Assembly (NCBI GenBank): GCA_013297755.1
Contig: JAAFIH010000040.1
Coordinates: 1 to 34,499, forward strand
Origin: Cytophagales bacterium
Lineage (GTDB): Bacteria; Bacteroidota; Bacteroidia; Cytophagales; UBA9547
DNA length: 34,499 bases
Direction of reading: 5' to 3'
The notes under the pieces are model-generated. The model ran no database searches and was not told where the DNA came from. It saw nothing but the letters and a program-made list of their open reading frames with translations. Both the position numbers and the translations under genes were made by a program. Below, piece after piece: positions 346 through 8,179 of this stretch. Each line of letters opens with the position of its first letter. Position 1 is the stretch's first letter.

Positions 346-353
346 TAAATTTG
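346..353 (+). promoter_or_regulatory. -7 promoter element of the five-gene array
   Basis: TAAATTTG matches the Bacteroidota -7 consensus TAnnTTTG. It ends 4 bp before the first ATG of the array (358), so transcription could begin at or almost at the start codon and give a leaderless or nearly leaderless mRNA. No good TTTG lies at the -33 position. It is the only clear promoter for the array, because the gaps between the five genes are only 13-15 bp. Confidence 0.45.
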
Positions 354-357
354 TAAT

Positions 358-765
358 ATGAAGGTAAAAATTATTTCAATTATTCTTTTTTTGAGTTTTA
401 TATCCAAGGCAGAAACCAAAGAAATACCCTATACTTTAGACGATAGAGATAGACTTTTAAGGGTCGAGGAAAGTATTCAAACATTAAATATCAGATTTGA
501 CGATTTGAACTCTAAATTTGATTCAAGATTCGACAGCATCCAAAAACAAATTGATTTTTCTAACAATCTTATGCTTACCTTAATTGCTGGGTTACTAGGC
601 ACTGTTATATATATGTGGTGGGACAGGCGTGCTGCCAATGCCCCTCTCAAAGATGCCATAGAAGACGAATCTAAAAAAACAAAAAACCTTATTAAAGCAC
701 TCAAAGAATACTCTGATTCTCACCCAGAACTTAAAACTATATTTGATAGAGCTGCTATTTTATAA
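358..765 (+). CDS. Array gene 1: small signal-peptide/coiled-coil/one-TM protein
   Basis: 135-residue protein of unknown function, first of five paralogs. It has an N-terminal hydrophobic signal peptide (about 1-18, ending SKA), a conserved IPYTLDDRDR segment (23-32), a short amphipathic coiled coil with RFDDLNSKFDSRFDSIQ (46-62), one transmembrane segment (about 70-88), then MWWDRR and a charged tail of about 45 residues. The positive residues after the membrane segment suggest that the coiled coil lies in the periplasm and the tail in the cytoplasm. The tail is nearly identical in all five copies, while the coiled coil differs in length. Proteins starting with a DRDR-LE coiled coil and a WDRR membrane boundary are, to my memory, found as uncharacterised proteins in Bacteroidota. 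The start is fixed by the signal peptide and the promoter just upstream. Confidence 0.85.
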   Translation: MKVKIISIILFLSFISKAETKEIPYTLDDRDRLLRVEESIQTLNIRFDDLNSKFDSRFDSIQKQIDFSNNLMLTLIAGLLGTVIYMWWDRRAANAPLKDAIEDESKKTKNLIKALKEYSDSHPELKTIFDRAAIL

Positions 766-780
766 AAAAAAATTATTAAA

Positions 781-1155
781 ATGAAAAATAAAATATTAGT
801 TATTGTACTTTTTTTAGGTTTTATTGCTAAAGCAGAAACCAAAGAAATACCTTATACTTTAGACGATAGAGATAGAATGATCAGACTTGAGGTTAAAGTT
901 GATGCTTTAGATTCAAGATTTGAATCAATCCAAAAACAAATTGATTTTTCTAACAATCTTATGCTTACCTTAATTGCTGGGCTACTAGGTACTGTTATAT
1001 ATATGTGGTGGGACAGGCGTGCTGCCAATGCCCCTCTCAAAGATGCTATAGAAGACGAATCTAAGAAAACCAAAAACCTTATCAAAGCACTCAAAGAATA
1101 CTCTGATTCTCACCCAGAACTTAAAACTATATTTGATAGAGCAGCTATTTTGTAA
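781..1155 (+). CDS. Array gene 2: shortest paralog of the coiled-coil membrane family
   Basis: 124-residue paralog and the shortest of the five. The signal peptide (1-18, ending AKA), the IPYTLDDRDR segment, the membrane segment (about 59-77) and the C-terminal tail match its neighbours, but the coiled coil has only about two heptads (LEVKVDALDSRFESIQKQID). It begins 15 bp after array gene 1 with no promoter or terminator between, so the genes are probably co-transcribed. Silent differences such as GATGCTATAG and AAGAAAACC mark its tail-coding part; the second also occurs in array gene 5. Function unknown; the topology is inferred from hydropathy by eye. Confidence 0.85.
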   Translation: MKNKILVIVLFLGFIAKAETKEIPYTLDDRDRMIRLEVKVDALDSRFESIQKQIDFSNNLMLTLIAGLLGTVIYMWWDRRAANAPLKDAIEDESKKTKNLIKALKEYSDSHPELKTIFDRAAIL

Positions 1156-1169
1156 AAACAATTATTAAA

Positions 1170-1631
1170 ATGAAAAATAAAATATTAGTTATTGTACTTT
1201 TTTTAGGTTTTATTGCTAAAGCAGAAACCAAAGCAATACCCTATACTTTAGAAGATAGAGATAGACTTTTAAGGGTAGAAGAAAATATTAAAACACTAAA
1301 TGTAAGGTTTGATGATTTAAACTCTAAAATAGATAAAAGATTCGAGGATATGATTTCAAGGTTTGACTCAAAATTTGATTCTTTAGATTCAAGATTTGAA
1401 TCAATCCAAAAACAAATTGATTTTTCTAACAATCTTATGCTTACCTTAATTGCTGGGTTACTAGGCACTGTTATATATATGTGGTGGGACAGGCGTGCTG
1501 CCAATGCCCCTCTCAAAGATGCCATAGAAGACGAATCTAAAAAAACAAAAAACCTTATTAAAGCACTCAAAGAATACTCTGATTCTCACCCAGAACTTAA
1601 AACTATATTTGATAGAGCAGCTATTTTGTAA
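1170..1631 (+). CDS. Array gene 3: longest coiled coil of the family
   Basis: 153-residue paralog with the longest stalk: between the DRDR segment (about 29-32) and the membrane segment (about 88-106) lie some 55 residues with repeated R/KFDxx units (SKIDKRFEDMISRFDSKFDSLDSRFESIQ, in parts). The signal peptide, membrane segment and tail are those of the family. The first part of the stalk resembles array gene 1 (LNVRFDDLNSK) and the last part resembles array gene 2 (LDSRFESIQ), as if assembled by recombination between copies. It starts 14 bp after gene 2. Function unknown. Confidence 0.85.
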   Translation: MKNKILVIVLFLGFIAKAETKAIPYTLEDRDRLLRVEENIKTLNVRFDDLNSKIDKRFEDMISRFDSKFDSLDSRFESIQKQIDFSNNLMLTLIAGLLGTVIYMWWDRRAANAPLKDAIEDESKKTKNLIKALKEYSDSHPELKTIFDRAAIL

Positions 1632-1644
1632 AAAAATTATTAAA

Positions 1645-2094
1645 ATGAAAAATAAAATAACAGTTATTGTATTTTTTTTAGGTTTTATTGCTCAAGCAGA
1701 AACCAAAGAAATACCCTATACTTTAGATGATAGAGATCGAATGATTAGACTTGAGTCAAAAGTTGAAGAAGGTTTTAAAGCGATTGATGCCAAGTTTGAT
1801 GCCATAAACGCAAAATTTGACGCTCAAAACGCCAAATTTGACGCTCAAAATTCAAGATTCGACAGCATCCAAAAACAAATTGATTTTTCTAACAATCTTA
1901 TGCTTACCTTAATTGCTGGGCTACTAGGCACTGTTATATATATGTGGTGGGACAGGCGTGCTGCCAATGCCCCTCTCAAAGATGCCATAGAAGACGAATC
2001 TAAAAAAACAAAAAACCTTATTAAAGCACTCAAAGAATACTCTGATTCTCACCCAGAACTTAAAACTATATTTGATAGAGCAGCTATTTTGTAA
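1645..2094 (+). CDS. Array gene 4: paralog with perfect 7-residue stalk repeats
   Basis: 149-residue paralog. An in-frame ATG at 1609 lies inside array gene 3; the start at 1645 is preferred because it begins the conserved signal peptide (1-18) and keeps the family's 13-bp gap. The stalk carries exact heptads (AKFDAIN, AKFDAQN, AKFDAQN, then SRFDSIQ; about 49-76) encoded by 21-bp tandem repeats, a form that can gain or lose units by slippage or unequal crossing-over. The membrane segment is at about 84-102, followed by MWWDRR and the common tail. The predicted protein is identical to that of array gene 5. Function unknown. Confidence 0.85.
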   Translation: MKNKITVIVFFLGFIAQAETKEIPYTLDDRDRMIRLESKVEEGFKAIDAKFDAINAKFDAQNAKFDAQNSRFDSIQKQIDFSNNLMLTLIAGLLGTVIYMWWDRRAANAPLKDAIEDESKKTKNLIKALKEYSDSHPELKTIFDRAAIL

Positions 2095-2107
2095 AAAAAT
2101 TATTAAA

Positions 2108-2557
2108 ATGAAAAATAAAATAACAGTTATTGTATTTTTTTTAGGTTTTATTGCTCAAGCAGAAACCAAAGAAATACCCTATACTTTAGATGATAGAGAT
2201 CGAATGATTAGACTTGAGTCAAAAGTTGAAGAAGGTTTTAAAGCGATTGATGCCAAGTTTGATGCCATAAACGCAAAATTTGACGCTCAAAACGCCAAAT
2301 TTGACGCTCAAAATTCAAGATTCGACAGCATCCAAAAACAAATTGATTTTTCTAACAATCTTATGCTTACCTTAATTGCTGGGCTACTAGGCACTGTTAT
2401 ATATATGTGGTGGGACAGGCGTGCTGCCAATGCCCCTCTCAAAGATGCCATAGAAGACGAATCTAAGAAAACCAAAAACCTTATTAAAGCACTCAAAGAA
2501 TACTCTGATTCTCACCCAGAACTTAAAACTATATTTGATAGAGCAGCTATTTTGTAA
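2108..2557 (+). CDS. Array gene 5: near-exact copy of array gene 4
   Basis: 149-residue protein identical in predicted sequence to array gene 4, with the same 21-bp heptad repeats. An in-frame ATG at 2072 lies inside gene 4; 2108 is preferred for the same reasons as for gene 4. At the DNA level it differs from gene 4 in a few silent sites in the tail: AAGAAAACC replaces AAAAAAACA, the variant otherwise seen in gene 2. That fits a recent 463-bp duplication followed by gene conversion from gene 2. It is the last gene of the array; a hairpin at 2636-2658 may end the transcript. Confidence 0.85.
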   Translation: MKNKITVIVFFLGFIAQAETKEIPYTLDDRDRMIRLESKVEEGFKAIDAKFDAINAKFDAQNAKFDAQNSRFDSIQKQIDFSNNLMLTLIAGLLGTVIYMWWDRRAANAPLKDAIEDESKKTKNLIKALKEYSDSHPELKTIFDRAAIL

Positions 2558-7990: not shown

Positions 7991-7999
7991 CACAAAATT

Positions 8000-8080
8000 T
8001 TAGGGGTGTCAATACAATTTTGTAACGACTGAGATTATACCCTTTGAACCTGATGAGGATAATGCCTACGAAGGGAAAAA
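8000..8080 (+). promoter_or_regulatory. TPP (thiamine pyrophosphate, THI-box) riboswitch
   Basis: The conserved THI-box cores are present in order: AGGGGTG (8002-8008), CTGAGA (8029-8034), ACCCTTTGAACCTGAT (8039-8054), GGATAATGCC (8057-8066) and GAAGGGA (8070-8076). Such aptamers bind thiamine pyrophosphate and normally reduce expression of thiamine synthesis or uptake genes. The only gene downstream is the TonB-dependent receptor at 8180, about 100 nt away. No clear terminator lies between, so control is probably at translation initiation (inference). Confidence 0.93.
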
Positions 8081-8179
8081 GCCAAAGTTTTGTGGTTGCA
8101 CAGTCGTGTATACGCATACTTTAATTCTCAACTCTCTAAGTTTTAATGTTTGATTTTCAACAATTAAAGCCTAAGAGCC

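Follow-up and report, generated by a model that had tools for sequence, protein, structure and literature searches.

Five adjacent genes at positions 358–2557 of contig JAAFIH010000040.1 of a Cytophagales bacterium (assembly GCA_013297755.1), of which a stretch of 34,499 nucleotides was analysed (hereafter the window), encode small proteins of one architecture, a coiled-coil stalk followed by one transmembrane (TM) segment and a charged tail, and belong to a family with 23 genes in this genome. We tentatively explain the array as part of a lineage-specific family of coil-plus-TM proteins that expands by tandem duplication, in which TM segment and tail would be the working part under constraint and the coil an oligomerisation rod that tolerates changes in length, and put the probability of this explanation at roughly 0.47. 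The anatomy of the proteins, their copy number, the constraint on them, a chimeric copy and the stepped stalk lengths are the observations from which it starts. They offer a natural series of membrane proteins in which the rod is stepped in length and everything else is near-fixed, so that the importance of coil length becomes directly testable.

Anatomy of the tandem array

The five open reading frames (ORFs) lie on the same strand with gaps of 13–15 nt between neighbours. They and their repeated parts are as follows:

358..765, + strand: copy 1 (W1), 135 aa, stalk of 30 aa
781..1155, + strand: copy 2 (W2), 124 aa, stalk of 19 aa
1170..1631, + strand: copy 3 (W3), 153 aa, stalk of 48 aa
1645..2094, + strand: copy 4 (W4), 149 aa, stalk of 44 aa
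2108..2557, + strand: copy 5 (W5), 149 aa, protein identical to that of copy 4
1806..1850, + strand: 21-bp (one heptad) tandem repeat in the stalk of copy 4
2269–2313, + strand: 21-bp tandem repeat in the stalk of copy 5, the same as in copy 4
1888..2094, + strand: constant block of TM segment, WDRR and tail of copy 4, with an equivalent block in each window copy

Protein lengths are counted from ATG; the ORF list begins copies 4 and 5 at the TTG codons 1609 and 2072, respectively, but ATG 1645 is favoured for copy 4 by the alignment of the family. The order of parts is common to all five proteins: a hydrophobic N-terminus, IPYTL(D/E)DRDR, the stalk, one TM segment, WDRR and a charged tail ending in AAIL. 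The hydrophobic N-terminal stretch of the window copies closes with a signal-peptidase-like A-E-T-K. Kyte–Doolittle (KD) hydropathy marks the TM segment in all four distinct window copies; the hydrophobic N-terminus is marked in copies 1–3, but not in copy 4. In TM segment and tail, copies 4 and 5 differ by only two silent changes. A sequence-only reading of this DNA, which preceded our analysis, had claimed five adjacent genes of one architecture here, and ORFs, hydropathy and the exclusively silent differences in TM segment and tail bear it out.

The coil was assessed as a hydrophobic period of 3.4–3.64 residues in head plus stalk, compared with 2000 residue shuffles. It is clear in copies 3, 4 and 5 (reached by 1, 1 and 0 of the 2000 shuffles, respectively) and weaker in the short copies 1 and 2 (reached by 39 and 85). 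An AlphaFold2 model of copy 4 has a helix at residues 2–18, a continuous helix from 27 to 135 that passes through the TM segment, and a helix at 137–146. Hydropathy and coil period of most copies agree with a putative coiled-coil oligomer of single-TM proteins, in which the N-terminus would lie outside and the C-terminus inside.

The stalks had also been proposed to span the periplasm, a suggestion that found no support. Head and stalk of the window copies together comprise 31–60 residues and would, at a helix rise of 0.15 nm per residue, reach ~5–9 nm if both are helical, whereas the periplasm is ~20 nm wide or more; moreover, none of the five window proteins contains a cysteine that could carry a lipid anchor. 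The window stalks are, therefore, probably too short to cross the periplasm.

Distribution of the family

The window's own genome (G000; 4.24 Mb, 70 contigs) holds its 23 family genes in arrays of five (window), four (contig C1), four (C12) and eight (C52), plus two single genes on contigs C19 and C34. The first copy of the C52 array (C52a) has lost the family tail, and a 34-residue match on contig C4 (E 1e-6) was left out of the count. A search with one window protein matched 7 of 98 genomes at 1e-5, G000 included, and a profile search 6 of 59 genomes at 1e-8, with 26 matches in G000, nine in genome G011, six in G001 and one or two in three others. Tandem copies occur in three of the seven matching genomes: G000, G001 (two copies) and G087, which belongs to a different bacterial family and has three tandem copies of 154, 161 and 168 aa. 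In a sample of 395 genomes of the phylum, at least 15 matched the full profile at 1e-5, several of them through the coil alone and so not necessarily with members of the family, and at least seven matched the TM-plus-tail profile at 1e-4 (G000 included in both cases); these counts are lower bounds, since at most the best 9 and 15 candidates per genome were scored. The homolog search and copy count suggested by the sequence-only reading thus reveal a family that is not always single-copy with a fixed stalk, as further arrays exist and their stalk lengths differ.

These further arrays also bear on the possibility that the window array is an artefact of assembly. It is true that the first position of the window is the end of a contig, that copy 5 is almost the same as copy 4 and that the C52 contig is only 12 kb long; however, copies 1–4 differ in sequence, arrays are present on four contigs (window, C1, C12 and C52), and G001 has two tandem copies, which makes an artefact very improbable.

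In two distant genomes (L057:1337-1719 and L118:1304-1686) a gene for a 60-aa hydrophobic protein is followed by one for a 67-aa protein that resembles the family tail and lacks coil and signal peptide. Since these 67-aa proteins consist of TM segment and tail alone, the family tail may represent an independent module.

Constraint and probable exchange between copies

TM segment and tail carry no nonsynonymous difference in any of the ten pairs of window copies, against 1–8 silent ones. This agrees with the earlier claim that membrane and tail parts are invariant, and a pattern of silent changes alone is not expected of chance ORFs. The same block has no nonsynonymous difference in all six pairs of the C12 array and 0–1 in the C1 array, where silent divergence (dS) is up to 0.34 (three pairs tested); in the C52 array it is looser, with 0–11 nonsynonymous differences. 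To judge by these substitutions, TM segment and tail are under very strong constraint. Four comparisons of this block between arrays, two of which involved G001, gave a dS of 1.16, 2.05, 2.74 or saturation and a nonsynonymous divergence (dN) of 0.17–0.36, whereas dS within arrays (window, C1 and C12) is at most 0.34. Copies within an array are, therefore, closer to each other at silent sites than copies of different arrays, as in a tandem family that evolves concertedly. The combination of low dN and dS within arrays with high values between them indicates that selection keeps the copies of an array similar and that recent common ancestry or exchange does so as well. Duplication after the arrays had split would give the same silent likeness; only a chimeric gene and the contrast between the 5′ and 3′ halves of the genes point to exchange.

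The chimeric gene is the second copy of the C12 array. Its signal peptide and head are 73–83% identical to those of the window copies (83% to copy 2) and 57–59% to those of its own array, while its TM segment and tail are 97–98% identical to its own array and 62–63% to the window copies. On these identities the gene is a chimera between arrays. As for the contrast between halves, signal peptide and head of the window copies differ by up to 26% at the DNA level, and copies 4 and 5 encode identical proteins, so that the proposal that only the stalk varies had to be abandoned. The fraction of silent differences in the window is 0.333 in signal peptide and head versus 0.084 in TM segment and tail (0.170 versus 0.074 without copy 1), and in the G001 pair 0.396 versus 0.188. 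In these two cases exchange or copying has affected the 3′ half more recently.

Stalk lengths and their steps

The stalks of the arrays have the following lengths:

Window: 30, 19, 48, 44 and 44 residues
C1: 41, 23, 34 and 55 residues
C12: 44, 30, 51 and 37 residues
C52: 43, 25, 25, 39, 18, 18, 32 and 39 residues
G001: 44 and 34 residues

They range from 19 to 48 residues in the window and from 18 to 55 across all arrays. When the lengths are sorted, the successive steps are 11, 14 and 4 (window), 11, 7 and 14 (C1), 7, 7 and 7 (C12), 7, 7, 7 and 4 (C52, the tail-less C52a being counted) and 10 (G001). All 14 steps deviate from a multiple of 3.5 by at most 0.5 residue, a property that 15 of the 36 integers up to 36 share. 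Nine steps are heptad multiples, obtainable by 21-bp slippage alone, and the other five (4, 4, 10, 11 and 11) sit three or four residues off a heptad multiple, i.e., at the sizes of stammers and stutters. Insertions of three or four residues are described as the best-understood discontinuities that preserve coiled-coil helices (PMC4786415), and all 14 steps (7, 14, or 4/10/11) are tolerable for a coiled coil. The words KFDA and RFD recur 7 or 4 residues apart in the stalk and are visible in the codons; with this spacing, recombination between the words keeps the register by itself. The step pattern is compatible with mutation bias and with selection alike, and the two are inseparable here. It suggests that the survival of recombination products is limited by the register of the coiled coil.

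A mechanism that would fit these observations is as follows. A small inner-membrane protein would be exported by its signal peptide and held by one TM segment, with a periplasmic coil and a cytoplasmic tail; the coils would associate into parallel bundles, TM segment and cytoplasmic tail would form the constant working part, and the length of the rod would be tolerated within limits. Tandem duplication together with unequal recombination would increase the number of copies and thereby, probably, the dosage, and homologous exchange could give rise to chimeras and make parts of copies uniform again. Units of 4, 7 or 11 residues would be gained or lost through recombination between the KFDA/RFD codon repeats, and only those changes that keep the helix in register would survive.

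Selection for length and other explanations

The sequence-only reading saw a family in which the length of the stalk is the selected variable. Its first half stands, as the family is multi-copy with a constant TM segment and tail; its second half is, in our view, unlikely. It would imply that the length ladder is itself a trait, with graded membrane-anchored spacers, acting together or in different assemblies, that set the distance between head and inner membrane. Distinct lengths are indeed common, being found in four of four copies in C1, four of four in C12 (in one-heptad steps of 30/37/44/51), four of five in the window and five of eight in C52, and the tandem copies of G087 favour a ladder in a different bacterial family as well. 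Two of the four equal-length pairs (W4/W5 and C52b/c) are very recent duplicates; the other two (C52e/f and C52d/h) have kept the same length despite greater divergence. In the C52 array the flanks of the stalk are alike on both sides while the stalk itself is diverse, which also fits a ladder. However, single-copy homologs elsewhere differ in stalk length too, the repetitive DNA of the stalk could yield ladders by slippage alone, and the stalks are probably too short for the periplasm. Furthermore, the same genome contains three tandem CCDC90-like proteins with coil and TM segment (L112:9685-11303, contig C69; 185, 167 and 174 aa, 88–94% identical), for which no sequence relation to the window family was detected and which differ in coil length by steps of 7, 11 and 18. 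Because a different coil family of the same genome shows the same kind of length steps, birth-and-death of a coil family is favoured over selected rulers.

The divergence of signal peptide and head raises another possibility, namely a receptor or interaction family with a variable front and a constant back, in which the exported half diversifies against a partner (cell, phage or toxin) and TM segment and tail provide a fixed output. The strong divergence of signal peptide and head in the window, C12 (one chimera) and G001 while TM segment and tail are fixed would fit, as would the gene that joins halves of two array types and the very unequal numbers of matches between genomes. The exported part is, however, little more than a coil and lacks a separate binding domain, much of the 5′ divergence sits in the signal peptide (judged by eye), and the head of the C52 copies is almost constant. 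The anti-phage models of PADLOC gave no convincing match among five family proteins, including three window proteins; the best E value was 0.0024, over coil regions. We consider this explanation slightly more doubtful than that of a selected ladder.

Finally, the arrays could be the nearly neutral by-product of a duplication-prone genome, with extra copies that have no role. A control sample of 400 kb of G000 (20 stretches, 341 ORFs) contains 11 clusters of neighbouring same-strand paralogs, four of them at ≥60% identity (ten and three, respectively, without L112), and the loss of the tail in C52a points in the same direction. Against this stand the zero or near-zero nonsynonymous changes in TM segment and tail in the face of several silent ones (window, C1 and C12) and the conserved position of a promoter box at six loci (see below), and neutrality seems to us less likely still.

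Several points weigh against the expansion of a family with a tolerant rod as we propose it. Export, topology, oligomerisation, a role in dosage and the recombination mechanism are inferred, and the cleavage of a signal peptide is read from the sequence. The coil period of five C52 copies (a, b, c, e and f) is not clearly above that of shuffles (reached by 108–254 of 2000), and the model of copy 4, built on an alignment of five sequences, has a pTM of only 0.29 (mean pLDDT 74.2). Homogenisation of the 3′ half is no general rule across the arrays, because the contrast in silent differences is reversed in C1 (0.099 in signal peptide and head versus 0.231 in TM segment and tail; three copies, C1a with its longer start being omitted) and in C52 (0.094 versus 0.168; seven copies, C52a omitted), and is seen in C12 only through the chimera (0.398 versus 0.158 with it, but 0.152 versus 0.177 without). 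Alike flanks around stalks of diverse length, as in C52, would also be expected from selection for length. The control sample, moreover, is from G000 alone and not random: L112 was chosen for its known CCDC90-like array and L113 for a weak match.

A promoter box and predicted leaderless transcripts

Upstream of copy 1 lies a further element:

346..353, + strand: TAAATTTG, matching the −7 promoter box of Bacteroidota, with 4 nt between it and the start codon of copy 1

The −7 box of Bacteroidota, TAnnTTTG, is reported to occupy positions −12 to −5 in Flavobacterium johnsoniae (PMC6847099) and F. psychrophilum (PMC9723704). With the box 4 nt before the ATG, the A of this codon would be +1, and copy 1 and the loci with the same spacing are predicted to be transcribed as leaderless mRNAs. 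The box is found at this spacing at 6 of 12 loci of the window's bacterial family, i.e., window copy 1, C52, C19, G001:C41, G001:C22 and G005:C55, and is absent there from C1, C12, C34, G001:C63, G001:C7 and G005:C522. Within the C52 array five of the eight copies have the spacing, and in the other three the first T of the box at that position is replaced by C. None of the 11 loci assessed in more distant genomes has it, which makes 6 of 23 overall. Among 360 sampled non-family ORFs of ≥100 aa, one has a box at this spacing and 65 have one anywhere in 60 nt; a second non-family ORF with the spacing encodes 65 aa and falls under the size limit. Fisher's exact test against 1 of 360 gives p values of 1.8e-9 (6 of 12) and 1.6e-7 (6 of 23), which are post hoc: the data themselves gave rise to the comparison, and the choice of the window's bacterial family as the test group followed sight of the result. 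Loci were counted by hand, internal array copies were left out, and so were loci whose start could not be placed or whose ORF was unlisted (G002, G001:C156, G011:C36, C54 and C62).

The arrangement, predicted and linked to this family, occurs in a phylum in which short or absent leaders are reported at a few per cent: 3.7% of 5′ untranslated regions are under 10 nt in Bacteroides thetaiotaomicron (PMC7366714) and 5.5% of transcripts are leaderless in F. psychrophilum (PMC9723704). A more far-reaching proposal would be that the cell keeps a graded set of ~20 membrane-anchored rods, with TM segment and tail near-fixed per array, heptad or stutter lengths arising via recombination of coding repeats, and several loci leaderless. 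We regard this as quite unlikely; if true, it would represent a gene system that diversifies length rather than sequence, with several rods made from exactly leaderless mRNAs, an arrangement reported to be uncommon in Bacteroidota.

Comparison with named families and systems

No Pfam model (five window proteins) or NCBIfam model (three of the five) scored over its cut-off, nor did any model of either database with six relatives, one of which is a CCDC90-like protein. Literature searches aimed at the family listed no paper on it. The best matches in PHROGs, which has no curated cut-off and was scanned with three of the five proteins, were phrog_6701 (E 3.4e-6 and 4.5e-6) and phrog_12015 (9.3e-6), families of unknown function matched over the coil only; NCBIfam slr1601_fam reached E 3e-4 and 20.8 bits against a cut-off of 70. 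Most of the best profile matches to solved structures were to influenza haemagglutinin HA2 (E 4.9e-5 and up); they cover the coil only, and homology was rejected. A Foldseek search of the model against the PDB gave no matches. Origin from a mobile element was likewise rejected, as copy 3 was unmatched in phage and plasmid collections and the close alignment in viral contigs.

The CCDC90-like family (DUF1640, PF07798; MCUR1, CCDC90B) shares with the window family a coiled-coil rod and one TM segment. PF07798 (cut-off 33.5 bits) was not among the matches listed at E≤10 for the five window proteins, and the CCDC90-like array of G000 is itself under this cut-off (22.5–31.1 bits); unlike the window family, its copies have, judged by eye, the TM segment near the C-terminus, no WDRR tail and no signal-peptide-like start. 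XhlA-type proteins (PF10779) also consist of a short coil followed by one TM segment; copy 3 scored 11.5 bits and a homolog from G011 17.6 bits against a cut-off of 34.7, and to our knowledge the XhlA family has no signal peptide or conserved tail. Lpp-type lipoproteins are periplasmic spacers whose coil length sets the gap of the envelope, and the window family resembles them in having a predicted periplasmic coil whose length could matter. It differs in a predicted inner-membrane TM segment and tail instead of an outer-membrane anchor, in a shorter coil and in the absence, from the five window proteins, of a lipobox cysteine. For Wzz chain-length regulators Pfam listed no match at E≤10, and a chain-length family of PHROGs reached E 0.028, over the coil only. 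The common silent sites within arrays and the chimera between arrays are as in tandem families under concerted evolution; here, unlike there, a coding repeat inside each copy also alters the length of a rod.

Genomic surroundings and other tandem clusters

Ten neighbour proteins of loci in G000 and G001 suggest no common function, and a pathway link was dropped. They are TonB, threonine synthase, nitrite/sulfite reductase, DnaJ, an MgsA-type AAA+ ATPase, pseudouridine synthase, a release factor, a glycosyltransferase, lycopene cyclase and isocitrate/isopropylmalate dehydrogenase. A neighbourhood of polysaccharide genes at some distant homologs was noted by eye only, and this reading was not kept. 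Nor was joint transposition via common flanks, for the sole strong common flank (right of the window array, left of the C52 array) is a high-copy dispersed repeat. This intergenic repeat of ~115 bp with a 9-bp hairpin lies at 2575–2700 of the window, also adjoins the C52 array, and has at least 41 matches at 88–100% identity in G000, its own copy included (40 of 255 candidates scored). Folding around it is ordinary (z −1.5), and no Rfam family was over threshold there.

The tail-less copy of the C52 array is separated from the following copy by two genes on the opposite strand (L033:8846-9429), one for a ParE-type toxin (PF05016, E 1e-9) and, upstream of it, an ORF of 101 aa. Other tandem clusters were observed in the control sample. 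At L110:2013-4661 (contig C3) there are five tandem two-gene units, toxin-antitoxin-like by eye, each with a 66-aa protein that is near-constant in its first half (sub-threshold DUF2683) and a partner with a constant C-terminal and a variable N-terminal half. At L107:4024-5905 (C34) a 174-aa ORF is exactly duplicated (100%), with related ORFs between and after the two copies, and at L111:5108-5929 (C19) there is a tandem pair of short coil-plus-TM-like proteins of 124 and 108 aa, 49% identical, with similar C-terminal ends by eye. Elsewhere in the window, at 7992–8093, a TPP riboswitch (67.4 bits) lies upstream of a 744-aa ORF that is TonB-dependent receptor-like by eye.

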